This document shows positions 5,340 through 39,048 of a stretch of 43,064 nucleotides of DNA, in pieces. The translations under genes and the position numbers were made by a program. Positions within the stretch are counted from its first letter, which is position 1. The number at the start of each line of letters is the position of its first letter. This DNA comes from Phycisphaerales bacterium (lineage in GTDB: Bacteria; Planctomycetota; Phycisphaerae; UBA1845): the NCBI GenBank assembly GCA_013140575.1, contig JABFSN010000027.1:1-43064 (forward strand), read 5' to 3'. The notes below the pieces were generated by a model. The model saw only the letters and a program-made list of their open reading frames with translations. It was not told where the DNA came from and made no database searches.

Positions 5340-6746
5340 GTGTGGAACAATTCGTGGAACAAGTGTCGATCTGCCCGAAAAACAGCCTACGCGCTGCCAA
5401 AGCCGGAAGGAGGGTTCGTCTTCATCTCGGCGATGGCTCTTATTCGAGCGTGGTGGGCCTACAGACGCGCGATGATTCGGTTGTACGACCTTCGGGTGTG
5501 GTTCGCATGTTTTGAGGTCGTGGCAAGGCGCTGCGGCGCTGCTCCCAATCGATCCCCGCGATACTCATTCGATGAGCTTCGCAGATTGGCCGGAGGCAAA
5601 TCGGTTGAGGTCGTTAAAACAGCGGTCGGCAGACTTGTGCGGGCCGGGGTCTTGTCATGGTCGGAGAATCTCATCCGGTTCCCGTCACTCGCCCACGACG
5701 CCGCCGAAAGCGCCGATTCCGAATTGCGGAGGATGATCGATCTTGTCGCGAACCATCGCCGTAAAGTCCCCGTCCCACGGCGGATCATCCGATTCGTCGC
5801 CGGCTGCTCTAAGCCGGTCACCATCGCGACGATTCTGGGGATCATGCTACGTTGCCTGTACTACCGCGACGGGGCTTGCGCGCCTGATGGGCGCTGCAAG
5901 GCGTCGTGGATTGCCGGAGTTTTCGGCGTCGATGAGAGAAACGTGAAGGCGGCGCGTGGGTACCTGAAAGACGTCGGTTGGCTCATCGTCGAACAATCGT
6001 CACAGACCGCCCTGAACCGCTGGGGCAGTCGCCTGCGAGTCAACCTTTGCTGGCAAGCAGTGCAGCCGCACCAGCGCATTGAACCGCCGCGCCCTCAGCG
6101 TCACGCATCACCACCCCTCGCGCCCGCGAATCCGCGCGAATCACCACCCCCAAGAAATGACCGGGAACTCTCTTCGAGATCGATCCACCAGAAACCCGCC
6201 CCGCGGGGTTCTGGTGTTTGTGAACCTGCTTTGTCGTCAGCTCAAGAAGCTCCCTGGCCCAACACGGGACGTCGTGTACCCGAAGAGCCACGCCTGCATC
6301 CGTCCGGCGTCAGTACGATTCCCGATCTTCGCGACGTCTGCGCGGAGGATTTGAAGGTGCCCGCACGCCTCAGCGTGTTGTTCGCGCAGGCCACTGCACG
6401 CGGCCTCATCGACGGCGGCGAAGCCGCGAGACTCCGGTTTTTCGCGGCGGCGCAGCACGCGCTCCGCGTCGGTACGACGAACCCGTGTGGACTCTTCGCT
6501 GTCGTGGTGCGCCGCAACCTTTGGCGGTTCGTTTCCACAGGTGATGAAGACCGCGCCCGGGCATTGATGGCCCTCGGGCGCGACCTGCAATCGCATCGGC
6601 GCCGACCCATTTGCGTCCCAGGCTCTGGAGATCCGGTCCTCGCCAAGGACGTGCTGCGCACTCTGTTGCGAAGTCTACGAGCGCGTTGGTCGTTCGCTGG
6701 TTCGTGTCGCTCGCGTACGCTTGTTGCCCACCATGCACATCGTTAG
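5340..6746 (+). CDS. Winged-helix protein, possible replication initiator
   Basis: The open frame gives 468 aa from a GTG at 5340; an ATG at 5433 is an alternative and neither has a convincing ribosome binding site. Two winged-helix-like units can be seen: about residues 70-120 (DELRRLAGGKSVEVVKTAVGRLVRAG) and 165-235 (CKASWIAGVFGVDERNVKAARGYLKD). A Pro/Arg/Ser-rich linker and a helical C-terminal part follow. Tandem winged helices near a divergent parA operon fit plasmid replication initiators, but a regulator with the same folds is possible. No Rep family is named with confidence. The last 72 bases overlap the end of the convergent Het-C/VWA gene. Confidence 0.55.
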   Translation: MWNNSWNKCRSARKTAYALPKPEGGFVFISAMALIRAWWAYRRAMIRLYDLRVWFACFEVVARRCGAAPNRSPRYSFDELRRLAGGKSVEVVKTAVGRLVRAGVLSWSENLIRFPSLAHDAAESADSELRRMIDLVANHRRKVPVPRRIIRFVAGCSKPVTIATILGIMLRCLYYRDGACAPDGRCKASWIAGVFGVDERNVKAARGYLKDVGWLIVEQSSQTALNRWGSRLRVNLCWQAVQPHQRIEPPRPQRHASPPLAPANPRESPPPRNDRELSSRSIHQKPAPRGSGVCEPALSSAQEAPWPNTGRRVPEEPRLHPSGVSTIPDLRDVCAEDLKVPARLSVLFAQATARGLIDGGEAARLRFFAAAQHALRVGTTNPCGLFAVVVRRNLWRFVSTGDEDRARALMALGRDLQSHRRRPICVPGSGDPVLAKDVLRTLLRSLRARWSFAGSCRSRTLVAHHAHR

Positions 6747-9700
6747 CAGCGACATTGAAAGCATGCCGATTGCCCCTGTGCCGCAAGCTTGTGGACTTGC
6801 CATGGGCGGGGATGGAACCACCTGAAAAACCGGAGATTCGACACAACCATCGCCTATGCCGTCCATGTCTATGTCCGTTTGGTTCGGATTGGCCAGACCG
6901 ACGCAGTTGTCGCATCGATCAAGGACCGCATCGTTATCCGTGTCACTTGAAGGGCCGGTCAGGCACAACTCGCACCCGTCGTCGATTCCGTTGTCGTCAC
7001 AGTCTACGAATCCAGAGTTCGTTGGATCACGGTCGCACGCAGTACACCCCGTGACCAGGAAGAGGAGCGACCCGGAGTTTCCTGCCTCCGCCTGTGACTC
7101 GCTGACGGCACTCAACGTGATCTGCACATCGGTGAAACTGAGTGGCTGGTCGTCGCATTGCCCGTTCAAGGCCAAAACGCAGGAATCACTGCAAGTGGCG
7201 GGTGCCGACGCCGAATCCCGGGGACCACAATCTCCGCAGTCGGTGCCGTAATCACAATTGCTGTAATCGGATCCGGGACCCCCGTCGTCGCAGTCGTTGT
7301 CAAAGTCGAAGCGGCAGTCATTCGAGCAGATCGGTTCGCCGCCGGAATAAGCTGCGGGGCCACAATCGGAGCAATCGGTTCCTGGCGGGCAGATTTCCCG
7401 TTCCAGAAAATCGGCGGGTACCACTACATCCACCTCCACCGTGGCGACACCGCCGCTCTCGATGCTCACCGAGCTGGGTTCGGCTCGGGTGACAAGTCCA
7501 CGGTTGTCGGTGACGGTCACGCGGAACGTGTCCGACGGTCCCAGATTCCGCACATGAAATCGCGGGGAACTCTTCGCGCCGAGCGGAAGGAGTCCGAGGG
7601 ATAGCGGCATGGGCAGATCGGCGTCCGTCGTAACCTGAACCGACTGCCCGCGAAACTGGCCGGGAAACACACGCTCAAACGGAAAACCGTTGCCGTCTTC
7701 CCCGCTCACCGCGACCAGGAATGGTTGATCCGGCAAGCTGACCGTCCCGACGAAATCCGAAGGGGCGGCGAGTGGGTTGCCGGTTGCCAACTCAATCACA
7801 CCGATTTCATCGCCGGTGGGGCTGATCATGTGGAACGATGGGTTTACAAAGGGACCGAAAACGTTGGCCGCCGCCAACACCGGGCCTCCCACCAGCGGCT
7901 GACCCGGAAACGGAAAAAGTGCCTCATGCCCGGCGCGACCCGACTCAACCACGAATTCGAAGGAGAGGGCGTCGATTTCGCTGGCGGCTCTGGCGGTCAT
8001 CGAGAACGCCCCACCCCCGATGGCCTGCAGGGTCCAACGGCCGGGTTGGGGGGCAACAATGGAGACGATGCAACCGTTCGCGAAATTGCTCACAGTCACA
8101 CCGGGATCCCCTTCGCTTAACAAAACCCCGGCCGGGCTTCGCAACGTCACAGATTCCTTCGTTTCCATCGACACCGCCACCACAAGCTGTTCGATGGTGG
8201 AATCCACAACGATGGGAATGTCCCTCACGCCCGACGCTCCCTCACGCGGACCGCAGTCCAAACAATCCGTTCCCAAGTCACAGATTGAATAATCAGATCC
8301 CGGACCGCCGTCATCGCATTCACCATCTGAGGCCGTTCGGCAGGCGTCTGAGCATAGTGCCACCGACTCAAGCACGTCGCTGATCGTCTTTACATTCGTG
8401 AGCCGGCGAGCAAGTTGAGGGCGTACCAGTTGGAAAACATCGTGAACCTCTCGTTCGCCGAGAAAGAATGCTTGGCCGCCCGTCTCCGCGGCGTTGCGCA
8501 GGAACACCGGATCGAGGGATGAGCACGATCCGGAAAGCACAGGCGACACCGTGATGCGCTTGTCCTTCGCAACTTTGATGGCTGCATCTGCGACTTCCGG
8601 GTCAGAGCTGCTGGCGTCGGTGAAAAGGAGGAGCGTTGAATCCTTCTGGCTGGCACTCAAGGCGCGAAGCAACGCTGTCTGCGACGGTTCGGGACAATCG
8701 CCCCCCTCGCTGACCCGGATGTTTTCGACAACCCGTTGAAACGTCATGGCGTCTCGCGTCACGACGGGCTCGCCGATATCCGGATCGTTGAAGGGCAAAA
8801 ACAGGTACTCGGCCGGCTCTTCACCGGATGCGACAATCTCGCTGACCAGGGAAGTGATTTCCGCTTTGACTTGCGCGATCTCATCCTCCATGCTGCTGGT
8901 GACATCCACGACGAAGGCCAGCGTGCCGCGCCCGGTTATCCCCATCAGCGCCCTGATCGCTTTGGCATTTCCGGCCACGCCTCGCTCATTCAGAATGCCC
9001 TCGATGAAATCACGCGTGCTGGTTTCCGCGAACTCCCGAGCGCGTTCGTGCCCGGAAAGACTGGCATCATCCTTGTGAGTGCCGACGCAGCCGCCAAGGG
9101 CGCCGGACGCCAAGAGGTTTCCATGCAAGCATCGCCCCGGAGGTGGAAACTGATCGCAGCCGCTTGCACCGTACCAATAGCCCGACGTGAGCGGGTGGGT
9201 GGAGGACAAACCTGTCGGATCGTTGAGGAACGTGCCAAGCACATCCGCTGGCTGACGCGTCTGACTGCAATACTGTGTATTGTTGTCCGGGAAGCGGGGG
9301 TCATAGGGCGGAGGGTCGGGCAGGACTCGGGTTCCGAAGCCTTCGAGCGGCAGCGGACTTAACACACCGGCGTCGGTCAACTCCACGTAATTGGAGTGGG
9401 CGTAAAAATCCTGAATCGCGTGGAGCGCACGACCGAGTTCACGTCGCGCTTCCGCACCATCGGGACTTGGCGCCGTGATGAACTCGATGATCTTGCTGCG
9501 CCGCTCAATGATTGCGGCGCTACCAGCCGAAAAATGATCGCTGTCGAAGTGTAATTCATGCAGGTTGAACGAGTTGGCATTCTGGGGCAAACAGGTACGT
9601 AGGCCGGAGGGAATCGGATAGCCGTACAAGTGCCAGGCGAGAAACTGCAAACAATCCGACTGCTGGTTGTGAAGGCTTACCTCGTTAAGAGCAACCGGCG

Positions 9701-9905
9701 TGAAGCTGAGCGTCTCTCCATCGACCACGCGCTGTACGCGCCGGAGCGCGTCGTCCGTAATGGCCGCGTGGGTCGGTGATTTGAAACCCATTGCATCAGG
9801 ATTCAGAACTGAAACGGCCGCCGCCGTGAGAAACGGCAGCAGTAACCAATGCAGGCCGGACTCCGCTACGACTCCGTCGGCAGACATGCGAGACCGAGAA
9901 TTCAT
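6675..9905 (-). CDS. Secreted Het-C / VWA protein with Cys-rich and TSP3-like repeats
   Basis: This 1076-aa exported protein has a hydrophobic N-terminal segment (about residues 18-40). A Het-C-like domain follows (MGFKSPTHAAITDDAL, then LHELHFDSDHF and ALHAIQDFYAHSNY with conserved His/Asp). A VWA domain starts at about residue 310 with the MIDAS-type DVTSSM and LLFTDASSSD. Near 535 and 865 are copies of a Cys-rich unit CDDGGPGSDYS-CD-GTDC-DCGPR. The end carries thrombospondin type-3-like Asp-rich segments (DTDNDAVLDRCDNC, TDIDMDGIGDGC). A terminal Cys-Gly, hydrophobic stretch and basic tail resemble a C-terminal sorting signal. The start at 9905 follows GGAGAGG. The VWA and TSP3 units should bind Ca or Mg; the role is probably cell-surface binding, not known. 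Confidence 0.85.
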   Translation of the reverse strand: MNSRSRMSADGVVAESGLHWLLLPFLTAAAVSVLNPDAMGFKSPTHAAITDDALRRVQRVVDGETLSFTPVALNEVSLHNQQSDCLQFLAWHLYGYPIPSGLRTCLPQNANSFNLHELHFDSDHFSAGSAAIIERRSKIIEFITAPSPDGAEARRELGRALHAIQDFYAHSNYVELTDAGVLSPLPLEGFGTRVLPDPPPYDPRFPDNNTQYCSQTRQPADVLGTFLNDPTGLSSTHPLTSGYWYGASGCDQFPPPGRCLHGNLLASGALGGCVGTHKDDASLSGHERAREFAETSTRDFIEGILNERGVAGNAKAIRALMGITGRGTLAFVVDVTSSMEDEIAQVKAEITSLVSEIVASGEEPAEYLFLPFNDPDIGEPVVTRDAMTFQRVVENIRVSEGGDCPEPSQTALLRALSASQKDSTLLLFTDASSSDPEVADAAIKVAKDKRITVSPVLSGSCSSLDPVFLRNAAETGGQAFFLGEREVHDVFQLVRPQLARRLTNVKTISDVLESVALCSDACRTASDGECDDGGPGSDYSICDLGTDCLDCGPREGASGVRDIPIVVDSTIEQLVVAVSMETKESVTLRSPAGVLLSEGDPGVTVSNFANGCIVSIVAPQPGRWTLQAIGGGAFSMTARAASEIDALSFEFVVESGRAGHEALFPFPGQPLVGGPVLAAANVFGPFVNPSFHMISPTGDEIGVIELATGNPLAAPSDFVGTVSLPDQPFLVAVSGEDGNGFPFERVFPGQFRGQSVQVTTDADLPMPLSLGLLPLGAKSSPRFHVRNLGPSDTFRVTVTDNRGLVTRAEPSSVSIESGGVATVEVDVVVPADFLEREICPPGTDCSDCGPAAYSGGEPICSNDCRFDFDNDCDDGGPGSDYSNCDYGTDCGDCGPRDSASAPATCSDSCVLALNGQCDDQPLSFTDVQITLSAVSESQAEAGNSGSLLFLVTGCTACDRDPTNSGFVDCDDNGIDDGCELCLTGPSSDTDNDAVLDRCDNCVGLANPNQTDIDMDGIGDGCVESPVFQVVPSPPMASPQACGTGAIGMLSMSLLTMCMVGNKRTRATRTSERPTRS

Positions 9906-10133
9906 CGTGTCCTCTCCTAGCATCGCGGACTCACGCTTGCAGCGCCGAGAATCCGCTGTCCGTTAGTTTTTGAGTCAAGCGCCGTTGCACCGGCGCACGT
10001 TTCGTCATCAGAAACGGGCATCACCGCCCGAGTTCCATTTGTGAAGGCTACTCGCCTGATTCTGGGTTTCTCAATCCGCCCCACGTGGTAAGGTGCTTGT
10101 ATGCGGAGGTCCCATGCGTCATCCCGCAATTCC

Positions 10134-13971: not shown

Positions 13972-14835
13972 CTATCCGGGCCAGACCCTTGTCCAGAATT
14001 CGACAAGTCGACGATGAGCGACGAGAAGATCGCGCTCGTCGATGGCCGTCTCCTCCGCCATTGCCGCGAATTCCTTTGTCCACGCATCCGGTGGTAGGGG
14101 GATTTCCTGCGGCACGGCGTGCGTGCCGCGCGTCTCAAACGTCCGTCGAACCGCGTCACGCACTTCCGCAAGCTCAAGTTGCTCACGTGCCATGAGCAGA
14201 ATGAGGTCCACGAGGTCTTTCGTCCGGGTGTTTGGACGGTCGCTCCAGGGAAAGGTCAGGGCGTGGAGTTTCTCCGCAAACTGCTGGGCTTTCGGCACCG
14301 CCCGCACGGTCGCGGGCGTGATTCCGGCGAATCCGAGCACGTCATCGCCGGCCAACCGTTCAGGCTCGCCCGTCAGTGCGTCGCCGATGCCAACGTCAAC
14401 ATGGAACTGTGCAAATCTCTTGCCGGCGACGAGGGCATCCACAGGGAAGCGAGCGCCGCCCATCGGGGCTCCTTGCAGCTCCGAATAGGCAGCCCCGATT
14501 CGGAATACGAAAAAATCGGCCAAGTCTCGGCTTGCGGCCTCCTGCAGGTGCTCACGGATTTGAAGAATACGGTCCTTGACGGCCGCCGCCGAGGAAACCG
14601 AAAGGTCTACGTCAGTTGTGGCGCGAGCATGGGGCCGGTACCGGAGTTCCATTGCGTACCCGCCCTTGAGCAGCCACGGTGGGTTCGGCGACGCAAACAG
14701 CCGAGCAAGCAGTCGCTCGATGGTGACGTTGAGTCGTAGCGTGTTGAGCGGGATACGCCGCTGGGCCGCAACGCCTTTGAGTCGCTCTTGCAGCGCCTGC
14801 CGAAACGCGGCCGCCGTTTTGTACCGATTGGGCAT
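13972..14835 (-). CDS. abiEii: AbiEii-type nucleotidyltransferase toxin
   Basis: The product is 287 aa. It carries the nucleotidyltransferase signature of the AbiEii/AbiGii family: LLKGGYAMELRY (56-66) and RATTDVDLSV (71-80) with the DxD metal pair at Asp75 and Asp77. The later conserved segments QFAEKLHAL and RTKDLVDLILL are also present. Family members are type IV toxins that add nucleotides to tRNA acceptor ends in related systems (established knowledge); activity here is inference. The start lies 3 bases after the antitoxin stop. The motifs look intact, so the toxin is probably functional. It converges with the kinase/TPR gene. Confidence 0.9.
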   Translation of the reverse strand: MPNRYKTAAAFRQALQERLKGVAAQRRIPLNTLRLNVTIERLLARLFASPNPPWLLKGGYAMELRYRPHARATTDVDLSVSSAAAVKDRILQIREHLQEAASRDLADFFVFRIGAAYSELQGAPMGGARFPVDALVAGKRFAQFHVDVGIGDALTGEPERLAGDDVLGFAGITPATVRAVPKAQQFAEKLHALTFPWSDRPNTRTKDLVDLILLMAREQLELAEVRDAVRRTFETRGTHAVPQEIPLPPDAWTKEFAAMAEETAIDERDLLVAHRRLVEFWTRVWPG

Positions 14836-14838
14836 ACA

Positions 14839-15447
14839 CTAACCGATTCTCTTGAGCGCCTCGGCGAGCCGTGCCGGGATCGTCTTCCCGTCGGCCATGC
14901 GCGTCAGGGCAGCACGGCGAACGAGTCCGCGCTGAAGGGCGTCATTAAGGGCCTTTTCAAGCTGCTCTTGGGGAACCGAATCCCCGGCCGCAACATCGAG
15001 CAGCGTGCGCGCCGCATCGGTGATCCGAAAACCCTCTCGCTCCTCCAGTTCGCCTGCGGCCACCGTCGCTCTATGCAGGACAACGGCGCGGGGCGGCTTC
15101 TTTCGAAACGTGGGCGGAACGGTCAGATGCACCTTTTTCGGAAGCAGCTCGCCGAGTTCCAGGACACCGAGCGCCGTCTCGTGCGAGGCCACCGCCTGGT
15201 GTTCGTCATCCCGACCCCGGCTCCACAGCGATAGGCGAATGAGGTCGTCGTGCTCGGCGACAGGAACTTCGGGCAGCCGATAAAGACCGCGCCCAACGCG
15301 TTGGAAGTTGCCGGCATTCACGTGATAATCCACGTGCTGTTTCGAGTAGCCGGCGCTGATCGCCTGCTTGGCGGTGAAGTAGCCTCCTTGCTGCGAAGCC
15401 AGTTCGTGCAGCGTTCGTCGGGCGGCTTGGGTGTTTCGATAGCTCAT
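14839..15447 (-). CDS. abiEi: AbiEi-type antitoxin / autorepressor
   Basis: The product is 202 aa from the ATG at 15447 (a TTG two codons upstream is possible). The N-terminal winged helix is GGYFTAKQAISAGYSKQHVDYHV followed by NFQRVGRGLYRLPEVP, the usual AbiEi_4 pattern. The rest (HQAVASHETALGVLELGELLP, VLHRATV, FRITDAARTLLDVA) matches the AbiEi C-terminal domain. AbiEi proteins neutralise AbiEii and repress their own operon. A strong predicted promoter with a palindrome over the transcription start lies directly upstream, in keeping with autoregulation. The operon may act in replicon maintenance or phage defence. Confidence 0.9.
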   Translation of the reverse strand: MSYRNTQAARRTLHELASQQGGYFTAKQAISAGYSKQHVDYHVNAGNFQRVGRGLYRLPEVPVAEHDDLIRLSLWSRGRDDEHQAVASHETALGVLELGELLPKKVHLTVPPTFRKKPPRAVVLHRATVAAGELEEREGFRITDAARTLLDVAAGDSVPQEQLEKALNDALQRGLVRRAALTRMADGKTIPARLAEALKRIG

Positions 15448-15455
15448 GCACAAAC

Positions 15456-16819: not shown

Positions 16820-19800
16820 TCAAGCACCGGCTGTCTCAATTGGGGAGCGTGTGCTTTCGATCCAGGGGTCGTCGAGGGTCTCCCTGCGGTTTCGTGGGCC
16901 AAATAGAGAATAGAGTGCCGGAAGCACAAGTAAGGTCAAAAGATTGTCCGTGATCACGCCACCGATGACGACGGTAGCGAGCGGTCTCTGTACCTCTGCG
17001 CCGATACCCGTGTTGAGGGCCATTGGCACAAAACCAAGGGCGGCGACGAGCCCGGTCATCAGAATCGGGCGCAAGCGGATGAGACGAGCTTCTTCGATGG
17101 CTTGGTTCAGCTCCGCGCCGGCGGCCCACCGCTGCTTGATCGTCGAAACCAGGACGAGTCCGGTGAGCACGGACACGCCCGATACGGCGATGAAGCCAAT
17201 TCCCGCCGAAATGGTAAACGGCATTTCCCGCAGCCACAGCGCGATGACGCCACCGAGCGCGGCAAAGGGCGCCCCGGTGAAGACGATTAACGAATCACGC
17301 ACCGAATTCGTGCTCAGGTAAAGCAGAATGAAGATCAACGCCAGGGCAACTGGGATCACGATCAACAAACGCGTCGAAGCGCGGATGAGGTTTTCGTACT
17401 GACCTCCGAACTGGAAGAAATACCCTGCCGGCAGTTTGACTTTCTCTTCAATCTCGCGCCGGGCCTCCGCAACAAAACCGCCCAGATCACGACCTCGAAC
17501 GTTGGTTTGCACAACGATCCTGCGCTTGGCCCACTCGCGGTTGATCGCAGACGGGCCCTCGATCTGTTGCACGCGAGCAAGGCGACCAATCGGAACCCTT
17601 TGTCCATCGGGGGCGGGTAGGAGGATGTTGGCAACGGCCTCAGGATCTCTACGGTAACGCTCGGGCAAGCGAACCACGAGGTCAAAACGTTGTTGCCCCT
17701 GACGGACCTGCCCCACGGGAATACCGCCGATCGCCTCAATGATTTCGAGTACGTGCTTCGCGGCGATCCCGTGGCGGGCGACAGCCGTCTGGTTCACCTT
17801 GACCTCAACGACCGGCAAACCGGTCAATTGTTCCGCCGACACATCCTCCGCCCCGGAGAGCCCTACCAGGACTTCCCGAACCTCGGCCGCTTTTTCTCGG
17901 AGAGTTTTGAGATCATCCCCGAAAATCTTGACGCCCAAATCGGAGCGGACTCCGGCGATCATCTCATTCATCCGCATCTCGATCGGTTGCGTAAAGCTGA
18001 TGTTCTGGCCTGGGAAGCCAAACAACTCCGCGTCCATCAACGCGGCCAGTTCCGTTTGTGTGGCGGCGCGTTTCCATTGTTCGCGCGGGGTCAGCGTTAC
18101 GAAGACGTCGGTTACCTCCAGCCCCATCGGATCGGTAGAAACTTCCGGCGTACCGGTTCGGCTCCACACGTCGCGAATCTCGTCGGGGAAGCGTTCCAAG
18201 AGGAACTTCTCAATCTGGGTGTTGTAGCGCATTGTCTCTTCGAGGGAAATTCCGGAAAGCCGAACGGCGTTGAAGACGATTGCCATCTCGTACAGCCGGG
18301 GCACGAATTCACTCCCCAGCCGGGTCGCAAGGAACGTGCCCCAGGTGAGGATTGCGCCGCACACAATGAGCGTGCCGACTCGAAAGCGAAGGGCGAGCTT
18401 AAGCAGTGGCCGGTACAACCACTGCGCTCCTCGTACGACCAGGTTTTCACGTTCCTTGATATTTCGAATCAGAAGCAGACTCGAAAGAACGGGTGTCAGC
18501 GTGAGGGAAAAAATCAGGGAGCTAAGCAACGCGAAGATGACTGTCAGAGCCATGGGACGGAAAAGTTTGCCCTCGATTCCTTCCAACAGGAGGATGGGCA
18601 GGTAAACGACCATAATGATCAGTTCGCCGAACATGGTTGGCTTGCGAACTTCAATGGCCGCGTCGCGGACGATTTCGACGATCGACCGATTGTCCCGCTT
18701 GTGTCCAAGCTTGCGAACACTGTTCTCGACGCTGATGACGGAGCTATCTACTACGAGACCAAAGTCGATGGCGCCGAGGCTTAGCAGGCTGGCGGCAATT
18801 CCAACGTGAAGCATCCAGTTGAACGCGAAAAGCATCGCGAGAGGAATCGCTAGAACGACAATCAAGCCGGCCCGCAAGTTCCCCAGGAAGATGAAGAGTA
18901 CGGCAACCACCAGCAAGGCACCCTCCACGAGGTTTCGTTCCACCGTGGCGATGACCTTGTCAACCAGTTCCGTTCGCTCGTAAACGACCTTGACTTCGAC
19001 ATCGGATGGCAGCGACTTGCGGACTTCAGCGAGGCGCTCTTCCAATCTACGCGTGACGACGTGCGCGTTCTCGCCCATGAGCATGAAACCAAGCCCATGG
19101 ACCACTTCGCCTCGGCCGTTGGCGGTCACGCCGCCGCGACGAAGTTCATGGCCTTCGCGTACATCGGCCACGTCGTGAACATGGATGGGGACACCGTCAT
19201 GTGCGACGATGACGACATTGCCTATTTCCTCTTCGTTCGTGGTCAGACTTACGCCTTGAACCAGGTGCAGCTCTCCTCCGCGCGAGATGTTCCCACCGCC
19301 CACGCTGAGGTTGTTCTCTTCCAGCGCTGCCAGTACGTGGTCAAGAGTCAGTTCGTATTTGATCAGCCGGTCGGGATCAGCGAGTACATGATATTGCTTG
19401 CGTTCACCACCCCAGGTGTTGATCTCCGCGACGCCGGAAACGGATTGGAGTTGGGGGCGGATGACCCAATCTTGCAGCGTCGTGAGCTCCGAAAGGCTGC
19501 GCGTTGGGCTAGTGATGATGTAATGGAAGATTTCGCCGAGGCCGGTGGAGATCGGACCCAACTCGGGCTTCTCAACGCCGACGGGAAGTTCAACGCCGCC
19601 CAGCCGCTCGGCGACCATTTGTCGGGCGAGGTACACACTCGTTCCGTCCTCGAAAATGGTGCTTACCTGGCCGAAACCGAATTTCGAGACCGAGCGAATT
19701 TCAGTGAGTTTCGGCAGGCCACCCAGGGCTCGCTCGACGGGGAGCGTCACCTGCTGCTCGATCTCGACGGGTGAAAGCGCCGGCGCTACTGTGTTGACCT

Positions 19801-19942
19801 GCACCATGACCGGAGTCGTATCGGGAAAAGCGTCGATGGGGAGCTTGGACATGGCGAACACGCCCAGCCCCACCATCACCAGGGACAGTACGACAACCAG
19901 AAAGCGGTTGCGGAGCGACCAGGTGATAATCCAGTTGAGCAT
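16820..19942 (-). CDS. czcA: CzcA-like HME-RND heavy-metal efflux pump (first)
   Basis: The product is 1040 aa, the normal size of an HME-RND inner-membrane pump. It starts MLNWIITWSLRNRFLVVV; the ATG at 19942 follows GAGG. The N-terminal helix is followed by the periplasmic entry LPIDAFPDTTPVMVQVNT. The fourth membrane helix carries GAIDFGLVVDSSVISVEN, with the two Asp and the Glu of the proton relay. The DFG form is typical of divalent-cation (Zn/Co/Cd) pumps rather than the CusA Cu/Ag type. It exports metal across both membranes with its adaptor and an outer-membrane channel. The adaptor gene lies 17 bases upstream; no own TolC gene is present, so it may share the one at 30.9-32.4 kb. Confidence 0.93.
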   Translation of the reverse strand: MLNWIITWSLRNRFLVVVLSLVMVGLGVFAMSKLPIDAFPDTTPVMVQVNTVAPALSPVEIEQQVTLPVERALGGLPKLTEIRSVSKFGFGQVSTIFEDGTSVYLARQMVAERLGGVELPVGVEKPELGPISTGLGEIFHYIITSPTRSLSELTTLQDWVIRPQLQSVSGVAEINTWGGERKQYHVLADPDRLIKYELTLDHVLAALEENNLSVGGGNISRGGELHLVQGVSLTTNEEEIGNVVIVAHDGVPIHVHDVADVREGHELRRGGVTANGRGEVVHGLGFMLMGENAHVVTRRLEERLAEVRKSLPSDVEVKVVYERTELVDKVIATVERNLVEGALLVVAVLFIFLGNLRAGLIVVLAIPLAMLFAFNWMLHVGIAASLLSLGAIDFGLVVDSSVISVENSVRKLGHKRDNRSIVEIVRDAAIEVRKPTMFGELIIMVVYLPILLLEGIEGKLFRPMALTVIFALLSSLIFSLTLTPVLSSLLLIRNIKERENLVVRGAQWLYRPLLKLALRFRVGTLIVCGAILTWGTFLATRLGSEFVPRLYEMAIVFNAVRLSGISLEETMRYNTQIEKFLLERFPDEIRDVWSRTGTPEVSTDPMGLEVTDVFVTLTPREQWKRAATQTELAALMDAELFGFPGQNISFTQPIEMRMNEMIAGVRSDLGVKIFGDDLKTLREKAAEVREVLVGLSGAEDVSAEQLTGLPVVEVKVNQTAVARHGIAAKHVLEIIEAIGGIPVGQVRQGQQRFDLVVRLPERYRRDPEAVANILLPAPDGQRVPIGRLARVQQIEGPSAINREWAKRRIVVQTNVRGRDLGGFVAEARREIEEKVKLPAGYFFQFGGQYENLIRASTRLLIVIPVALALIFILLYLSTNSVRDSLIVFTGAPFAALGGVIALWLREMPFTISAGIGFIAVSGVSVLTGLVLVSTIKQRWAAGAELNQAIEEARLIRLRPILMTGLVAALGFVPMALNTGIGAEVQRPLATVVIGGVITDNLLTLLVLPALYSLFGPRNRRETLDDPWIESTRSPIETAGA

Positions 19943-19959: not shown

Positions 19960-21708
19960 TTACTTTTTCTTCTTGATGTCGTCGGGACAGCACCCGGCGC
20001 CGATTTCACCCTTGAGGATCTCGGTCTTGAGCAGGAAACTGCCGGCGACCACAACCCGCTCCCCTTCACGCACGCCGTCACGCACCTCGAAGAGATCCTC
20101 GTTGGCCAGGCCGAGGCGAACCTTGCGCGGTTCAAACGTGGTGTCATTCTCTTTTACGAATACCATATTGCAGCAGCCATCCCATTGCACGGCCTCCTTC
20201 GGTACCACGAGCGCCTGCTCGTTGTCTCGGACCTGAACATGTGCCTGGCCGAACATGTTCGCTTTGAGCATGCCCTCCGGGTTTACGAATTCCGCCCGGG
20301 CCTTGAGTGTACGCGTTCTGGGATCGATCTTCGTGCTGACCCATGCGATCTGCCCCGCGAACGAATCGCCCTCGAACCCTTCGAGTTGAAGCGTGACCCG
20401 CATGCCGACTCGAAGCTGTACTCGCGGCTCCGCCAAATCAAGCATGGCCCACATCCGCGCAGTATCAGCCACGCTAAAGAGCATCCGCGACGTCTCGACG
20501 GTTTCACCGATGACGGCGGTTCGCTCCACGACTTCGCCATCGAAAGGAGCCGTTAGCGACAACAGCGACGACGTATCGCTCGTTTCCCTGAGGTAGGCGA
20601 CTTCCTCTTCGGAAAGCCCCAACAAGCGGAGCTTCTGTGCTGCCAGTGATTCTGCGATTCTGGCTTCCGTGAGTCTGTTTTCGATCTCCTGCACGTCTCG
20701 CAGAGGCGATAGCCCGGTTTTCCCCAACGCGGACTCACGCTCAAAGCTCTTGGTCTGAAGGGCAACCGAGGACATGGCCTGGAGCAAGTCGGACTTGGCC
20801 GCCGCTAGTTCAGGCGAATCAATAACCGCCAGCACATTCCCTTGGGCCACCTTCGCGCCTAGATCGACCCGCACTCCACGGACGACCCCGGGCACTCGCG
20901 ACGATAGTTGCGCGAATCGGTTCCCGTCGTAGGCAATTTCGGCATTGCACGTAACGGAATACGTCAAAGGCTGACGGGCGACCTCGAAGAAGGTCAACCC
21001 GGTGCGCCTGGCCATGTCCGCAGAGACGAGCCGAACCGTCGCCTTGTCGTTCGTGCAGGCGGGAGAAGGGGGGCGTTGGCTTCGCGGCATCGCCGCGTAC
21101 TTCTGGTTGAAGTCGGTTGAAATGCGTTCGCGAAGGGTTGCGTTGCACTTCATGCATTGTGACTCCGGCACCTCGTGCTCGGCGCACCAGTCACCTGCCT
21201 TCTTAAAGGATTCGACCAGCGCCGGATTGCATCGCGTGCAGACAGATTTGGGAATGCCGTGTGCCTCGCACGCCTCACCACCGGCTCCCGTACTCGAGTC
21301 GGGAATGACGGGGAATGCTCCGTGTGGCTCGTCCCCCGGTGGAGCGTTGCCCGAGCCTTTGTCGCCGGGTTTGAGCCTCTCCCATCGCTCCTTCACTTCG
21401 GGATGACATTGGACGCATTGAGTCTCGGGCAGCCCATGCTCCTTGCACCAATCGCCCGCCGACTTGAACTTCTCAATGAGTGATTCATCGCAACGGGTAC
21501 ACACCGACTCGGGAACTCCATGCCCCGTGCACCAGCCCTTCGATAGGTCCGGCGATAACGGGCTTGTGTCCGGTCCGAATGCAGCGGCGCTCTTTCCGGC
21601 TGCGGCCGGCGGTTTCGCGGACTGAGGCTCCTCGCTCTTCTTGCACCCGGTAACGGAGATAATCGCCGCAGCCAACAGCAGCGGTGTAGGGATGTAGATT
21701 GTTCTCAT
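19960..21708 (-). CDS. czcB: RND periplasmic adaptor with four N-terminal CxxHx6CxxC motifs
   Basis: This 582-aa lipoprotein (lipobox VTGC, Cys22) has an unusual N-terminal extension. Four copies of C-x2-H-x6-C-x2-C occur at Cys60, Cys88, Cys147 and Cys175, arranged as two pairs 28 residues apart (GHGVPESVCTRC, EHGLPETQCVQC and so on). From about 215 the usual adaptor parts follow: a beta-barrel/lipoyl half (LSSRVPGVVRGVRVDLGAKV), a helical hairpin, the second lipoyl half (LTAPFDGEVVERTAVIGETV) and the C-terminal domain ending GCCPDDIKKKK. The Cys/His units should bind metal and may deliver it to the pump; haem is unlikely since only one CxxCH occurs. AGGAA precedes the start. Confidence 0.92.
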   Translation of the reverse strand: MRTIYIPTPLLLAAAIISVTGCKKSEEPQSAKPPAAAGKSAAAFGPDTSPLSPDLSKGWCTGHGVPESVCTRCDESLIEKFKSAGDWCKEHGLPETQCVQCHPEVKERWERLKPGDKGSGNAPPGDEPHGAFPVIPDSSTGAGGEACEAHGIPKSVCTRCNPALVESFKKAGDWCAEHEVPESQCMKCNATLRERISTDFNQKYAAMPRSQRPPSPACTNDKATVRLVSADMARRTGLTFFEVARQPLTYSVTCNAEIAYDGNRFAQLSSRVPGVVRGVRVDLGAKVAQGNVLAVIDSPELAAAKSDLLQAMSSVALQTKSFERESALGKTGLSPLRDVQEIENRLTEARIAESLAAQKLRLLGLSEEEVAYLRETSDTSSLLSLTAPFDGEVVERTAVIGETVETSRMLFSVADTARMWAMLDLAEPRVQLRVGMRVTLQLEGFEGDSFAGQIAWVSTKIDPRTRTLKARAEFVNPEGMLKANMFGQAHVQVRDNEQALVVPKEAVQWDGCCNMVFVKENDTTFEPRKVRLGLANEDLFEVRDGVREGERVVVAGSFLLKTEILKGEIGAGCCPDDIKKKK

Positions 21709-21852: not shown

Positions 21853-22215
21853 TCAAATCAGCAAAGGAAAAACGCGGCACGCTTCGGGCGTGAAAAATGG
21901 AATGTCGGACAGGCGTTGAGCTACACCGCTTTGCAGGACCAAGGCGGCGTGGCATCTAAGTGGCTGAACGAAGCACGCGACCTGCAAGGGCTCTGTTTTT
22001 TGCACGAAGACACCATGCGCCGAGCAGAAGCAACGGTCGGGCGCATCCCCCTGGGGGACAGCGGGCCCATCCGCTTCACCTTCCCCTGTGCGGCCGTGCC
22101 CGCAGCACGAAGCCGAAGCAGGCGCACGCTGGCTGGCTTCGGCTCGGATCCCGCAAAGGATGGGGCAAGCAAAGCCGACCCAGGCCATTAGAAAGTATGA
22201 AGGAGCCCTTCGCAT
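21853..22215 (-). CDS. Small exported Cys-rich protein
   Basis: The product is 120 aa from the ATG at 22215. It begins with a plausible signal peptide (MRRAPSYFLMAWVGFA, cleavage after AEA near residue 27). The mature part has Cys-Cys-Gly-His and CFCSAHG clusters and further single Cys residues, suggesting metal binding. It resembles in layout, not clearly in sequence, the exported Cys-rich protein at 32552-32911; both precede an efflux module on the minus strand. Ribosome binding sites are weak, and the ATG at 22188 is an alternative. No named family. Confidence 0.5.
   Translation of the reverse strand: MRRAPSYFLMAWVGFACPILCGIRAEASQRAPASASCCGHGRTGEGEADGPAVPQGDAPDRCFCSAHGVFVQKTEPLQVACFVQPLRCHAALVLQSGVAQRLSDIPFFTPEACRVFPLLI

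Positions 22216-22724: not shown

Positions 22725-22728
<4 letters not shown>
22297..22728 (-). CDS. Membrane-anchored small protein coupled to the P-type ATPase
   Basis: The start ATG at 22728 overlaps the stop of the P-type ATPase gene (ATGA), so translation is coupled. The 143-aa product starts MKRRTEKRMSWIVAV and has one N-terminal membrane helix (about residues 9-28). An outside domain of about 110 residues follows, probably beta-rich (GTLKLVTD, HAEIRGASLRVHGRI, GTVRVAVLSPDES, GRFSVELPLVP). I do not recognise the family. Its mature part resembles in composition the lipoprotein upstream of the ATPase. An accessory role in metal export is inferred from position. Confidence 0.6.
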
Positions 22729-24917
<2,189 letters not shown>

Positions 24918-25483: not shown

Positions 25484-25762
25484 TTATGGTTTTTTCGTGC
25501 CGTGGTCGTGGCCGTCGCCCTCCTTGTGATCGTGGCCCTCATGATCCCCATGCGCCTTGCACTCGCCGTGTCCGACACAGCGTAGATTCGTGCCTTCTCG
25601 CACCCAGAGGTGCGCATCATCGCCTTCGCCGGTCACAAAATACTGCGTCTCGCTCTTGACCGGCTGAGCTCCAGTTTGGGCCAGTAGACTCCCGCCGACC
25701 GCTGCAAGACCGATGCCCATTGCGAGACCGACGATAAACCCAAATCGATTCGAACCCTTCAT
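25484..25762 (-). CDS. Small exported His-rich protein
   Basis: The product is 92 aa and starts MKGSNRFGFIVGLAMGIG, a signal peptide or N-terminal anchor ending about residue 30 (LLAQTG). The middle holds TQYFVTGEGDDAHLWVREGTN followed by one CVGHGEC pair. The last 25 residues are very rich in His, Asp and Gly (HGDHEGHDHKEG and on), a likely Zn/Co/Ni-binding tail. It lies between the CzcA-like pump at 25.8-29.3 kb and the lipoprotein/ATPase pair. It probably buffers metal in the periplasm. Confidence 0.7.
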   Translation of the reverse strand: MKGSNRFGFIVGLAMGIGLAAVGGSLLAQTGAQPVKSETQYFVTGEGDDAHLWVREGTNLRCVGHGECKAHGDHEGHDHKEGDGHDHGTKKP

Positions 25763-29345: not shown

Positions 29346-30668
29346 TTAGTGTTCGTGGGCGGCCGAGCCTTTGCCGAGTTCCGCCTTGAGGATGAAGCTC
29401 CCCGCCGCGACGTACTGCTCGCCCTCGACGAGTCCGCTACGGATCGGCACTAACCCTGACACGGGTTTGTCGATGCTGACCGGGCGCTGGACAAAAGTGT
29501 TTTCCTCATTCTGCACCGGAACGAAAATCACCGAGCGGCGATCGATCGTCTGAATCGCCTCCTCGGGAACCGCGATGACCGGCGCCGGGTCCGGGTTGTT
29601 GCGATCAACTGCGGTAATCTCCACTTGGGCGAACATGCCCGGCCACAGCGACCCGTGTTCGCACTTGACCGCGATACGGACCTGTGCGGTGCGGGTGCGG
29701 GCGTCGACCATGGGCGCGATGTATGAGACGGAGCCTTCGTGCTTATGCGCCTCCACTCCGCCTGTCCCAAGCCATGCCGTAGCGCCAATCGCAACGCTCG
29801 GCAACCGCGCCTCCGGCACATCAGCCAACACCCACACGTTCTCTGTGTCCGCCAGCACGAGGAGTGCCTCTTTCTCGGGGTTGACCAACTCGCCGAGAGT
29901 GACCTCCCGCTCCACAACCGTTCCGGGAATTGGGGCGCGGATCGGGAACCGGGACTGCACCTCACCACTTTCAATCAGCGGTTCGATCGCGGTCTGGTCC
30001 ATGCCTAACAGGTGGAGCTTGTTCTCCGCGGCGAGCACGGCGGACTCGGCCGATTTTTGCGCGGCCAGGGCCGCTCGATACTCGGCTTCTCTCTTCTGAA
30101 CCTCATCCAGCGCGATGCCCCGATTCTGATCGTAGAGCTTGGTGGCGCGGTCCAAGGCGTTTTTGGCAAGATCCACCGCAGGCACCGCCGTCTGCGCTTG
30201 GATCCGTTTCTGAAGGAACTCACTTTGCGCTGCCCCCAGTTCGGGGCTCTCCACATGTAGAAGCACGGCTCCCTTTTCAACTTTGTCGCCCAAGCGAACC
30301 AGGAGTTCGACCACGCGCCCCGGAAGCGGCGAACCAACGTGCGCCGTCCGTTCGGCATTGAACGCGACGCGGGCTGGCGCCATGAAAGAAGGCTGAAGCT
30401 TCCACAGAGAAGCCGATTCGACCTTGATTCCATAGCGGCTAATGGCGTCGCCGGTCAGTTTTACCTCGCCGGAATGTTCCTCTTCACCGTGGGCGTGGCC
30501 CGCGTGAGCATCGGTCGACTTGCCTGCGACGACGTCCGTCGTGTCCTTGTCACGGCAACCGAGCCCGAGAACAAGGGCGGCGACGGCAAGGAGCGACGCC
30601 GCGTCCTTCCTGTTCTGTAGGTTGCGGCTGAAAAGCGCGGGGCACGATCTATGTGCGATCACTGTCAT
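29346..30668 (-). CDS. czcB: CzcB-like periplasmic adaptor
   Basis: The product is 440 aa; the ATG at 30668 follows GGAG. It has a lipobox near LVLGLGC and then a His-rich segment (DAHAGHAHGEEEHSG) typical of CzcB proteins. The CzcB N-terminal beta-domain (VKLTGDAISRYGIKVESA) follows. The lipoyl halves are VGSPLPGRVVELLVRLGDKV and IRAPIPGTVVEREVTLGEL, separated by a long helical hairpin. The end (GLVEGEQYVAAGSFILKAEL, then AAHEH) is standard. It links the CzcA-like pump downstream to the CzcC-like channel. It lacks the CxxHx6CxxC extension of the other adaptor in the cluster. Confidence 0.92.
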   Translation of the reverse strand: MTVIAHRSCPALFSRNLQNRKDAASLLAVAALVLGLGCRDKDTTDVVAGKSTDAHAGHAHGEEEHSGEVKLTGDAISRYGIKVESASLWKLQPSFMAPARVAFNAERTAHVGSPLPGRVVELLVRLGDKVEKGAVLLHVESPELGAAQSEFLQKRIQAQTAVPAVDLAKNALDRATKLYDQNRGIALDEVQKREAEYRAALAAQKSAESAVLAAENKLHLLGMDQTAIEPLIESGEVQSRFPIRAPIPGTVVEREVTLGELVNPEKEALLVLADTENVWVLADVPEARLPSVAIGATAWLGTGGVEAHKHEGSVSYIAPMVDARTRTAQVRIAVKCEHGSLWPGMFAQVEITAVDRNNPDPAPVIAVPEEAIQTIDRRSVIFVPVQNEENTFVQRPVSIDKPVSGLVPIRSGLVEGEQYVAAGSFILKAELGKGSAAHEH

Positions 30669-30724
30669 TCGATATCTCCAATGTACGGCGCTTTGTTCAA
30701 TGTGCCGCCATGCGTTGCGTGGAT

Positions 30725-30892
30725 TTAGAGAAGCCATGCAGCAAAAGCCTGCCTGGCGAAATCGAGCGCGAATTCGGCAATAGCGGATGCTGAGCAGGGC
30801 ACTTCCGAGTTCGAGCAACCACCGACAAGAACGAGCATCACCAAGGCGACGACCGTTCGGGCGCCATTGCGTGGATTGGTTACGGCACTCAT
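30725..30892 (-). CDS. Tiny lipoprotein coupled to czcC
   Basis: An ATG at 30892 overlaps the czcC stop codon (ATGA). The 55-aa product starts MSAVTNPRNGARTVVALVM and has a clear lipobox LVGGC with Cys26. The mature peptide of 30 residues (CSNSEVPCSASAIAEF, then FALDFARQAFAAWLL) is mostly one amphipathic helix. The overlap, the lipobox and the position between czcC and czcB support it as a real gene. Function unknown; a small structural part of the envelope complex is possible. Confidence 0.65.
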   Translation of the reverse strand: MSAVTNPRNGARTVVALVMLVLVGGCSNSEVPCSASAIAEFALDFARQAFAAWLL

Positions 30893-32436
30893 GGTTGACC
30901 TCCTTGAGGATTCCCTTTGTCTGACTGGTTGGGCGTCGCGTCCCTGGGCGGCTCCGGTGGAGCGAGAATGACGTCGATCGGCCTGGCCACCGCGCGTTCC
31001 AATTCCACGAAAGCGTTGGCTGCGGCCTGTAGCGCCGTGACGTACCCCCGCCTCGATTCGAGGAGGGACCGTTGAGCGTCGATGACGTTGAGGATCGGCG
31101 TGTTACCGGCCTGATAGGCCGCTTCCGAGATGCTCAGCGTGTTGCGTACCTGGGGCAAGAGCTCGCGGTCGTATAGCGTTGCGACGGACCATGCGGTGGA
31201 GGCCCGGTCGGCCGCTTCTCGCGTCTCCTGCACAATGGCGCGATCTAGCGCTTGGAGAATGGCGATGGCCTGTTCGTGCGCGAATCGAGCTTTAGCAATT
31301 TGGGCTTGATTCTGATCGAAGATCGGAAGCGTGATGCCGAATGACGGGCCCATGAGGAGGTCAATTTCTTCGCTTTGTGCCTGGTTCCGCTGCCCGCGGG
31401 ACTCGATATCCGGCACAGTCAGGCCACCATTTGCGATAGAGGCTCGGGCCGTGTCCGCGAGAATGTTTCGCCCGGGTTGAGCACGGCGTTCAGGTCGTTC
31501 AAGTTCAAGGCCTATGTCCAGGTTGGGAAACACTTTGGCGTATTCCGCCTTCACACGAGCCTCGGTGGCGGCAACGCCGTCGTGGGCGGCGCGAAGATCG
31601 AGGCGGAACTCGCGAGCCATGCTCACAAGGCGTTCGGTGTCGATGACCTGTTCCTGGATCGATGGTAATGGGTCTGTTAGCGACAGATCGGCGGCGAGCG
31701 TGGTGATTGCCAAGGCCTTGGCCAATGTTCGTCGGGCCGAAGCGGCTTCAAGCCTCGCCGTGCGAAAATCGACTTCCGCGCGTAACGCCTGTCCTTTGGC
31801 CAGATTCGAGTCGAGAGCGCCTACGGCTCCCGCTTCAAGCCGCGCCTCGGTAACTTCCATGAGCTTTTTCGTCAGGGCAACGTTGTCCTGAGCAATCGTA
31901 AGCGCCTGATCGGAGGCGACGGCGTTGAAATAAGCCGTTCTCGTATCAATGGTGAGGGATACGACTTCGCGCGCCACTTCGAGGATAGTGCGGTCGAGAT
32001 CCCGCTCGGCGGCCCGTTTGCGCGGCGGGATGAGCCATAAGTCCGCAATGTTCTGGGCCACTCCGGCTTCCAGGTTTGCTAGGCCGCCACCCTCCGGAAA
32101 GCGAAGCGAGAGTCCTAATGTGGGGTTTGTGAACAGGCCAGCCTGCACCGCGTCGGCTCGCGCCATCCCGACTCGTGCCAGGGCGGCACGTACGTTCGTG
32201 TTGTTGAGTAGTGCGATCTTGACGGCCTCATCGACCGTCAAACCAGCGGCAAGAAGCTCGTCAACGAGTGCTTCTCGCGTCGGCGCATCATCTTCGAATT
32301 GTGGAAGCGACTCACCGGCAGCCTCCTTAACGTGCTGCGACGTGCGGTCAAAATCCGGTCGCGGGTCCACCGTGGCGCAGCCGGCCCATACGGAGGGCCA
32401 GATAACGAACACGGCCAAAGCACAACGCTCTTTCAT
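30889..32436 (-). CDS. czcC: CzcC-like outer-membrane efflux protein (TolC family)
   Basis: From the ATG at 32436 (after GAGG; 32451 also possible) the product is about 515 aa with a lipobox VWAGC. Two OEP repeats are present: about 60-270 and 300-500, each with the long coiled helices of TolC (LNNTNVRAALARVGMARADAV; YQAGNTPILNVIDAQRSLLE). It forms the exit duct for the CzcB/CzcA pair. As the only TolC-family gene in the window it may also serve the second RND pair at 16.8-21.7 kb. Downstream it overlaps the tiny lipoprotein gene by four bases. Confidence 0.92.
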   Translation of the reverse strand: MKERCALAVFVIWPSVWAGCATVDPRPDFDRTSQHVKEAAGESLPQFEDDAPTREALVDELLAAGLTVDEAVKIALLNNTNVRAALARVGMARADAVQAGLFTNPTLGLSLRFPEGGGLANLEAGVAQNIADLWLIPPRKRAAERDLDRTILEVAREVVSLTIDTRTAYFNAVASDQALTIAQDNVALTKKLMEVTEARLEAGAVGALDSNLAKGQALRAEVDFRTARLEAASARRTLAKALAITTLAADLSLTDPLPSIQEQVIDTERLVSMAREFRLDLRAAHDGVAATEARVKAEYAKVFPNLDIGLELERPERRAQPGRNILADTARASIANGGLTVPDIESRGQRNQAQSEEIDLLMGPSFGITLPIFDQNQAQIAKARFAHEQAIAILQALDRAIVQETREAADRASTAWSVATLYDRELLPQVRNTLSISEAAYQAGNTPILNVIDAQRSLLESRRGYVTALQAAANAFVELERAVARPIDVILAPPEPPRDATPNQSDKGNPQGGQP

Positions 32437-32551
32437 CCTGTTGGTCCTCATCTGGATGGTAAGAATCCACGCGCAACCGAAGGCGGCAGGGCGACGTGGC
32501 GCGCGGGATTGCCGCGCCCTTAGGTCCGACTGTGAGCGTGAAATGGAGGGA

Positions 32552-33490: not shown

Positions 33491-34096
33491 GGTACAAAAC
33501 AAACCTTGCGCCATGAAGTCTGGGAAAGGAGGACGAGGTATGGAGTAGAACCTCTGAAACCTTTCGCGGAACCCTGCGGGTATCGAATCCCGCCGTGGGC
33601 GTAGCCGGCCCATGATAAGCGAGTCTTGCGTGGCGGCGGAGCGATCCGTCCTGCGAAGCGTAGACAGCGAGTGCTGACGCCGTGTGATTGAGTTCCGAAA
33701 TTGGAGTCGCGGGTGGCCTTTGTTTTGGTTTGGGCGGAGGCTGCCGCTTCGTCGTTCCGGCCAGACGGAGCGGTCCCGCCGGGATCGTAGAGCAGGGCAT
33801 AGGCACAGGAGGGTTCCCCAGGAACATGGGAGACCCGGTCGTCTCCCCGGATGAGATCGGCCATGTGGGGGGCCGAGCAATGACCCCAGGCCCCGGCGCG
33901 GCATCCGGCGCCGCGGGAGCGAACATGCGGATGCGACCGAAGGGTACCGCCAAGCGAAGGCAACGAAGCGCGGCGGAACGGGCGACCGGGAGTCGTAGCG
34001 TCCTGATAGTACCGTGGAAGTCGGGACAGGCCGGCGCGCCGGCCGACCCGGCGGAGGGAAGCGGGGCGTCAGGTGATGGACTCGTTGGAGGGAAAC

Positions 34097-35458
34097 ATGA
34101 CAGGGGCATCGAACCCTGAGATCGTGTCAACGCGACAACAACGGATAGCGGCGTTGGCCAGGCAATCCCCGCAGATGGGGTTTACCTCTCTGAATCACTT
34201 CATCGACCTGCCCTGGTTGCACGAGGCCTACCGGCGAACCCGGAAGGACGGGGCCGTGGGGGTGGACGGACAGACGGCGGCGGACTACGAGCGGAACCTG
34301 GAGGCCAACCTCCAGTCCCTTCTGGACCGTGCCAAGTCCGGCGCATACCACGCTCCTCCCGTGCGCAGGGTGCACATTCCCAAGGGTACGGGGACCGACA
34401 CCCGGCCCATTGGGATTCCGACGTTTGAAGACAAGGTGCTTCAACGGGCGGTGGTCATGGTGTTGGAGGCAATATACGAGCAGGACTTCTACCCATGCTC
34501 GTACGGCTTCCGGCCCGGGCGCTCGGCCCACCAGGCGCTGCTGTCCCTCTGGGAACAGACGACGCGCACGGCGGGCGGGTGGATTCTGGAGGTGGACATC
34601 CGCAAGTTCTTCGACACGCTGGATCACGCTCACCTGCGGGAACTGCTCCAACGTCGAGTACGCGATGGCGTGCTGCTGAGACTGATCGGGAAATGGCTGA
34701 ATGCGGGCGTGCTGGAAGACGGGAGCGTATCGCACCCGCAGTCCGGGTCGCCCCAGGGCGGAGTGATCTCTCCGCTGCTGGCGAACGTGTATCTGCACTA
34801 CGTGCTGGACGCATGGTTCGAGCAGGACGTGAAGCCGCGACTTCGCGGCCGGGCCTTCCTGATCCGCTATGCCGACGACTTCGTCGTGGGGTTCACCCGC
34901 GAGGAGGACGCCCGGCGGGTGCAGGACGTGCTGCCGAAGAGATTCGGCAAGTACGGCCTCGCCATTCACCCGGACAAGAGCCGGCTGGTGCCGTTCCATC
35001 GCCCGGACCGTCGACCCAATCGTTCGAGCGGTTCGGACGCGTCGGGGCCCGGAACGTTCGACTTGCTGGGCTTCACCCACGTCTGGGGTCAGTCCTGGAC
35101 GAGGAAGGGGCACTGGGTGATTCAGCGGCGGACGGCCAGAGGGCGGTTCAAACGGGCGTTGCTGGCGATCAGCCAATGGTGCCGCACGAACCGTCACCGG
35201 TCGCTCGCGGAGCAGCACCAGAAACTATGCCAGAAGATACGCGGTCACTACGGCTACTACGGAATCACGACCAACGGCAAAGCGTTGACGCGATTCGGGT
35301 CGTCGGTGAACCGCGTCTGGCGCAAGTGGCTGAGCCGCCGCCGGGCGGGGAATGCGATGACCTGGAAACGGTTCAACCAGATCCTGGCACGCTACCCTCT
35401 GCCGCGGCCGACGGTGGTCCATTCCGTGTACAAAGCGCGAGGCAAACCCATCACTTGA
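34097..35458 (+). CDS. ltrA: Group II intron reverse transcriptase/maturase
   Basis: The ATG at 34097 directly follows GGAGGGAAAC, so it is preferred over upstream frame codons; the product is 453 aa. RT blocks are clear: [73 protein letters not shown] and the catalytic [12 protein letters not shown] maturase (domain X) part and the short C-terminal end with HGYYGITTN-like sequence follow. No HNH endonuclease domain is seen after it. It helps the intron splice and copies it into DNA targets. The frame is intact, so the intron may still be active. Confidence 0.95.
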
Positions 35459-36023: not shown

Positions 36024-36140
36024 TTGATATAACCTACGCCGACTCCAAGAGTTATGGAGACCTGCCGACGTCGGCAGTGCGGCCAAGGACGCGAAAAACG
36101 CGCGGTGCTACACCGCGCAAAAGCGTCAAGGAGCCGCAAA

Positions 36141-38622: not shown

Positions 38623-39048
38623 ATGGACGAGCACAGACCGATCACGGCCGTCGGCGATTCTCGAAGGGATCTCGGAGCCGTTGACGTTTCGGAAACCCAC
38701 GGCGACGGCGGTGCGAATTCGCCCGAGTACATTGAGCTCGCGGCGGCGGCACGACTGATACCGGGTCGTCCATCGACGAACGCCATCTGGCGATGGGCTC
38801 GCCGCGGCGTCCGGGCCCGTAATGGCGCGCGCATCCATCTCCGACACGTCCGTCTCGGCGGGCGTTTGCTCACCACCCGACTCTGGGTTGACCAGTTCGG
38901 CCAAACCGTGGCCGCGGCAGATGCTCTATTCTTCGACCAATCACCCGACCCAACGTCGGACACGCGATCCGACAAACCCAATGTCAATGCTTGTCGAGCA
39001 CGAAACCTCGATCGCGTCGAACGCGAACTCGATCAGGCAGGAATCTGA
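38623..39048 (+). CDS. DUF1580-like protein (excisionase-type HTH)
   Basis: The product is 141 aa. Residues about 35-100 fit the planctomycete DUF1580 pattern: YIELAAAARLIPGRPSTNAIWRWARRGVRARNG, then HLRHVRLGGRLLTTRLWVDQF, a MerR/excisionase-like winged helix. The tail is Asp/Asn/Arg-rich. Its stop codon overlaps the start of the primase gene (TGATG), so the two are coupled. Such proteins next to integrases may act as directionality factors (inference). Confidence 0.8.
   Translation: MDEHRPITAVGDSRRDLGAVDVSETHGDGGANSPEYIELAAAARLIPGRPSTNAIWRWARRGVRARNGARIHLRHVRLGGRLLTTRLWVDQFGQTVAAADALFFDQSPDPTSDTRSDKPNVNACRARNLDRVERELDQAGI

Follow-up and report, generated by a model that had tools for sequence, protein, structure and literature searches.

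The hand-over of metal from a chaperone to the adaptor of an RND metal pump is, to our knowledge, known as a methionine-based process for Cu(I) and Ag(I). CusF is a small Met-based beta-barrel serving these two ions. The N-terminus of CusB takes the metal in from CusF and then passes it on, and SilB carries a CusF-like chaperone domain, in single copy, at its C-terminus, so that the chaperone module of the CusCFBA and SilCBA systems is found free in the operon as well as fused to the RND adaptor (PMC4446572). A second described domain, HMBD (PF19335) of CusB-type adaptors and ATPases, is the nearest one in pattern to the repeat reported here: it is a small metal-binding domain which sometimes occurs several times per protein and has a C-x2-H followed by a C-x2-C. 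The CzcCBA and ZneCAB systems, finally, have adaptors with His tails and pumps with the TM4 motif DFGX3DGA.

Here we describe an RND adaptor with an N-terminal array of Cys/His units which is encoded on a 43,064-nucleotide stretch of a Phycisphaerales bacterium (JABFSN010000027.1, in the following called the window). As with CusF and SilB, the module exists as a free protein of the operon and as a part of an RND adaptor; in contrast to them it is built from Cys3His knuckle-plus-helix repeats in one to nine copies, is located N-terminally and accompanies pumps without the Met triad of CusA. We think it rather likely that the extension of this adaptor consists of four Cys3His metal-binding units which serve as a periplasmic metallochaperone array for the adjacent RND pump.

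The adaptor and its repeat array

The adaptor gene reads from an ATG at 21708 to a stop at 19960 (582 codons, minus strand; Table 1). Its product is an RND periplasmic adaptor of the HlyD/MFP type with 161 bits against RND_mfp TIGR01730 (cut-off 95), and HlyD_D23 (PF16576) covers residues 248–486 with an E-value of 5e-46 (157 bits, cut-off 30), whereas the score of 178.8 bits against the CzcB/NccB subfamily TIGR00999 stays below the cut-off of 319.3. Among solved structures the adaptor core is nearest to ZneB (PDB 3lnn) and the pump to ZneA. In this respect the system resembles CzcCBA and ZneCAB, but it differs from them by a Cys instead of a His tail, by the Cys/His array extension and by a TM4 motif DFGX3DSS instead of DFGX3DGA.

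The initial annotation had placed a 190-residue extension in front of a normal adaptor fold, and indeed the core begins around residue 218–248. Exactly as it had claimed, the motif C-x2-H-x6-C-x2-C is present four times in two pairs, starting at Cys60, 88, 147 and 175. The array is also a duplicated pair, as the spacing is 28 residues inside each pair and 87 residues between the pair starts and the 52-residue pairs are 54% identical. Twelve of the 13 cysteines in residues 1–210 are motif cysteines and the remaining one is Cys22 of the lipobox. When residues 1–210 were shuffled 200,000 times with preserved composition, one motif arose in 227 cases and two motifs in none. Even the contrast that had been drawn with the His-rich ends of CzcB proteins holds inside the window, where the second adaptor is His-rich and devoid of the unit.

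Table 1. Position and strand of the features of the metal cluster in the window
Feature	Position	Strand	Evidence
Cognate HME-RND pump RND1, TM4 motif DFGLVVDSSVISVEN	16820..19942	-	
RND periplasmic adaptor, CzcB/CusB-like lipoprotein with N-terminal Cys/His array, 582 aa	19960..21708	-	PF16576, TIGR01730, ZneB
C-terminal GAGCC of adaptor, Cys573-574	19987..19992	-	Cys573 in 45/47 module adaptors
Cys-Cys pair 512-513 in adaptor core	20170..20175	-	Cys in 32/47 and 35/47 module adaptors
Unit 4, CAEHEVPESQCMKC, residues 175-188	21145..21186	-	motif scan, shuffles
Unit 3, CEAHGIPKSVCTRC, residues 147-160	21229..21270	-	motif scan, shuffles
Flexible linker between pairs, residues 113-146	21271..21372	-	AlphaFold pLDDT <50 at 115-150
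Unit 2, CKEHGLPETQCVQC, residues 88-101	21406..21447	-	motif scan, shuffles
Unit 1, CTGHGVPESVCTRC, residues 60-73	21490..21531	-	motif scan, shuffles
Adaptor signal peptide and lipobox V-T-G-C22	21643..21708	-	read from sequence
Small secreted Cys-rich ORF upstream of adaptor, 120 aa, without family match	21853..22215	-	
P1B ATPase, Zn/Cd/Pb kind	22725..24917	-	TIGR01512 513 bits, cut-off 313 (cadmium family)
Small His-rich secreted ORF	25484..25762	-	homologue in locus L091
Second HME-RND pump RND2, CzcA type, DFGLIVDGAVIIVEN, internal His-rich loop	25833..29324	-	
Second adaptor, N- and C-terminus His-rich, without Cys/His unit	29346..30818	-	
TolC/CzcC-like outer-membrane channel	30889..32451	-	

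A structure prediction, one of the checks suggested in the initial annotation, gave a confident compact fold for the pair (AlphaFold on 15 aligned pairs, mean pLDDT 91.3) with short strands around each C-x2-H and C-x2-C half and a helix after each. In a prediction of the full window adaptor, aligned with six full-length homologues, the first pair reached about 81–86, the second pair about 60–78 and the core mostly 75–96, and the linker 115–150 was predicted to be disordered. According to these models the extension would consist of two folded pairs that are flexibly tethered beside the lipid anchor. CusB, too, has an N-terminal metal site at that position.

Relation to described domains

The expectation that the extension is no known adaptor-fused domain was borne out. 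Searches of Pfam and NCBIfam with the whole protein and with the isolated pairs gave nothing above the curated cut-offs for the extension, nothing significant was found among the PDB sequences, and a Foldseek comparison of the predicted pair with the PDB remained without match, which does not prove a new fold as a model of 56 residues is a weak query. A literature search likewise found no paper describing the motif in an adaptor or pump setting. The best scores of the isolated pairs were marginal (DUF5363, E 0.0009; NrfH, 0.0034; B-box, 0.0037), followed by a weak match to cytochrome c7 (0.024).

Two of these matches, NrfH and cytochrome c7, might hint at a redox domain or one with c-type haem. 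Haem is bound by CxxCH motifs, and one of the four units of the window contains CVQCH. Multihaem c-type cytochromes, however, have a CxxCH in each repeat, whereas His follows the CxxC in only 53 of 202 units overall and mostly Asn or Asp is found there; it is the CxxH half which is invariant. Haem binding was rejected because CxxCH is confined to this minority, and we consider a haem or redox domain extremely improbable. The weak likeness to B-box zinc fingers brings up a different possibility, namely that zinc is just a cofactor of the fold and that the pairs are protein-interaction domains which dock, for example, the free module protein or another envelope protein. The confidently predicted compact fold and the conservation of the non-ligand residues F-K and D-W would fit a structural zinc knuckle of this kind, but in the loci we read the module sits in metal-pump clusters and is repeated up to nine times, and a functional role is the simpler one for soft-metal ligands in a periplasmic metal-efflux setting. 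We regard a purely structural role as quite unlikely.

Of 30 related genomes, 24 contain HMBD. The unit differs from it (CPMHP...CPxCGM) by a spacing of 6 compared to about 10 residues and by lacking the CPMHP and the terminal Met; PF19335 gave no match at E 1 for the full adaptor or at E 10 for the pairs, and homology was rejected with a profile comparison probability of 12% (hhalign). Nor does the unit resemble the Met-based beta-barrel of CusF, as we found no sequence match and as short strands and helices are predicted instead of a barrel. The unit falls outside two known domain families and yet, by analogy, might work like a chaperone–adaptor fusion, which is a known kind. We would give about an even chance to the reading that it represents a new Planctomycetota family of periplasmic metallochaperones, unrelated to CusF and HMBD, which is employed on its own and in adaptor arrays and marks a separate thiol-using class of heavy-metal RND efflux pumps. 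Separately from the module, some Planctomycetota have single open reading frames rich in HMBD (L123, G403:C68:117440-119806, and G396:C458); these many-copy proteins are a parallel metal-domain array and are not linked to the module.

Conservation, distribution and copy number

Over 206 profile matches in 69 proteins the four ligands are retained as C 197/197, H 205/205, C 206/206 and C 205/206, counts which are biased upward as the profile rewards Cys and His. As an independent check, the window adaptor was compared with a paralogue that the same genome encodes on contig C113; dN/dS is 0.061 over the shared pair and 0.11 over the core, in agreement with the profile counts despite their bias. 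Most non-ligand positions are variable, with Asn, His or Asp after the CxxC. The Cys/His unit is real and under selection.

A profile search, which had also been suggested at the outset, found matches to the pair throughout the phylum Planctomycetota (83 of 392 genomes, 66 of 267 genera, and 31 of 60 close relatives), and the metal ligands are conserved in these homologues; relatives from named genomes have five to six units with every ligand retained. The unit, which had been treated as a feature of one protein, is a phylum-wide module with one to nine copies. In Pseudomonadota the module was found in one of 398 genomes, the seed genome; a second match (L054) is a chance match to an Fe–S-type CxxC motif of an old-yellow-enzyme-like protein. 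Two of 72,556 plasmids, both from Planctomycetota, have the module, and none of the viral contigs searched with the module profile carries it.

The C113 paralogue has three units compared to four in the window adaptor, and in other genomes new units come from tandem duplication with near-identical copies (L200, also L060), which indicates that the copy number is evolving. Some adaptors have a single unit and one adaptor of the pump clade described below (L186) has none, so the copy number of the unit is not essential. In genome G300 near-identical tandem copies are split across contig ends (L200:1-1430 and L201:4366-4755), and this is a recent repeat amplification.

A separate small secreted module protein, usually with two units and in several cases with a clear lipobox, is encoded in 21 of the 47 fetched neighbourhoods. 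Its gene directly follows the pump gene in L057, L065, L069 and L093, for example, and adjoins the adaptor gene in L056, L058 and L094. The mobilizable plasmid pK2D_1 carries the free module, annotated as hypothetical, between czcA and cadA, the order being czcC, hypothetical, czcB, czcA, free module, hypothetical, HMA-domain protein, cadA, thioredoxin and czcD. In the genome of the window, which is 96% complete, we searched for a free copy and found none, so not every host requires a free partner. A weak match in the host genome (L003) was dismissed as an aconitase. A further free module protein (L202:5591-6253) has a CzcA-type pump and a P1B ATPase as neighbours and is found on a stretch of 11.8 kb without a pump of the clade.

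Association with one pump clade

Circularity was avoided by a census with the pump rather than the module as query. Among 119 Planctomycetota genomes 24 pumps exceeded the threshold of 1100 bits, and 22 of their 23 readable adaptors have at least one unit; the adaptor of L187 is unreadable at a contig end. In a tree of 75 pumps module adaptors accompany 54 of the 55 members of one clade (support 100), but most of these pumps had been fetched through the module and the census is the fairer figure. Outside the clade there are 18 pumps without module adaptors and a separate group of two pumps with them. The pumps of the clade have DFGX3DSS or DFGX3DGS in TM4. The consensus for HME1 and HME2 pumps is DFGX3DGAX3VEN (PMC3637150); RND1 deviates from it, and RND2 of the same window conforms to it. 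Both kinds of pump and adaptor stand side by side in the window. Besides their Cys tail the 47 module adaptors often have Cys218 and Cys512/513, whereas the tails of the sampled adaptors of DGA (CzcA-type) pumps mostly consist of His. The alignment of the pump clade has no conserved Cys, so the last step of the proposed transfer would have to use other ligands. We also noted a separate pump group (family f50; L088, L195 and L196) with one unit per adaptor, GEGCAH or GEGCCAH tails and an aberrant TM4 (LGFGNITDGSVCTVEN in L088).

These data bear on the possibility that the module is a periplasmic metal sponge, that is, that it only sequesters metal like a metallothionein and that the fusion keeps this buffer near the pump, with no directed transfer. 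One to nine copies and growth by tandem duplication are what one would expect of a capacity trait, and the free forms would also suit a buffer. Against this, the tight link to one pump clade and the fact that core and tail of the adaptor offer matching Cys sites suggest a specific hand-over, and many adaptors have a single unit. We consider pure sequestration unlikely.

Which metal is handled can be approached from the pump and its neighbours. The CusA Met triad, which we take to be residues 573/623/672, is absent from the 46-member clade, the aligned residues being N, L or V, and E. The P1B ATPases in the module clusters mostly have the CPCALVIS motif as in Zn/Cd/Pb exporters, with one cluster having a Cu-type ATPase (L085). 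As both features argue for a divalent rather than a Cu(I) or Ag(I) substrate, Zn, Cd or Pb are favoured over Cu and Ag as the metal of module and pump.

Proposed role of the module

The free secreted forms in the same operons and the tracking of one pump clade make a metal loader the best reading of the module, and the built-in loader of the initial annotation is plausible. Capture of soft divalent ions by the tethered units would take place in the periplasm, each unit binding a single ion, with Zn, Cd or Pb as the most likely metals, via its C-x2-H and C-x2-C. The ion could then move by ligand exchange to thiolates which the adaptor has in its core and tail (Cys218, 512/513 and 573/574) and from there to the periplasmic cleft of the pump. 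Where present, the free secreted protein or lipoprotein may collect metal and supply the adaptor with it, in the way CusB is supplied by CusF. On this view the planctomycete module probably captures toxic soft metals on the outer side of the inner membrane for delivery to the pump. If true, this would be a phylum-wide and sequence-unrelated chaperone-to-pump solution for soft divalent metals. The natural free and fused forms and the copy-number series would make the transfer of Zn, Cd or Pb from chaperone to pump directly testable, many hypothetical proteins of planctomycetes would obtain an annotation, and the unit might possibly be of use as a compact metal-capture peptide.

Surroundings of the cluster

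An apparent group II intron reverse transcriptase is encoded on the plus strand at 34073–35458, and an integrase-like open reading frame comes after it at 36054–37667. The metal cluster may be part of a mobile region. At 38991–40739 (plus strand) an open reading frame resembles a primase-like N-terminus joined to a C-terminal integrase fragment. On the minus strand an AbiEii toxin/AbiEi antitoxin pair is found at 13972–15453, and a large VWA7-like secreted protein with more Cys-rich repeats is encoded at 6675–9923.
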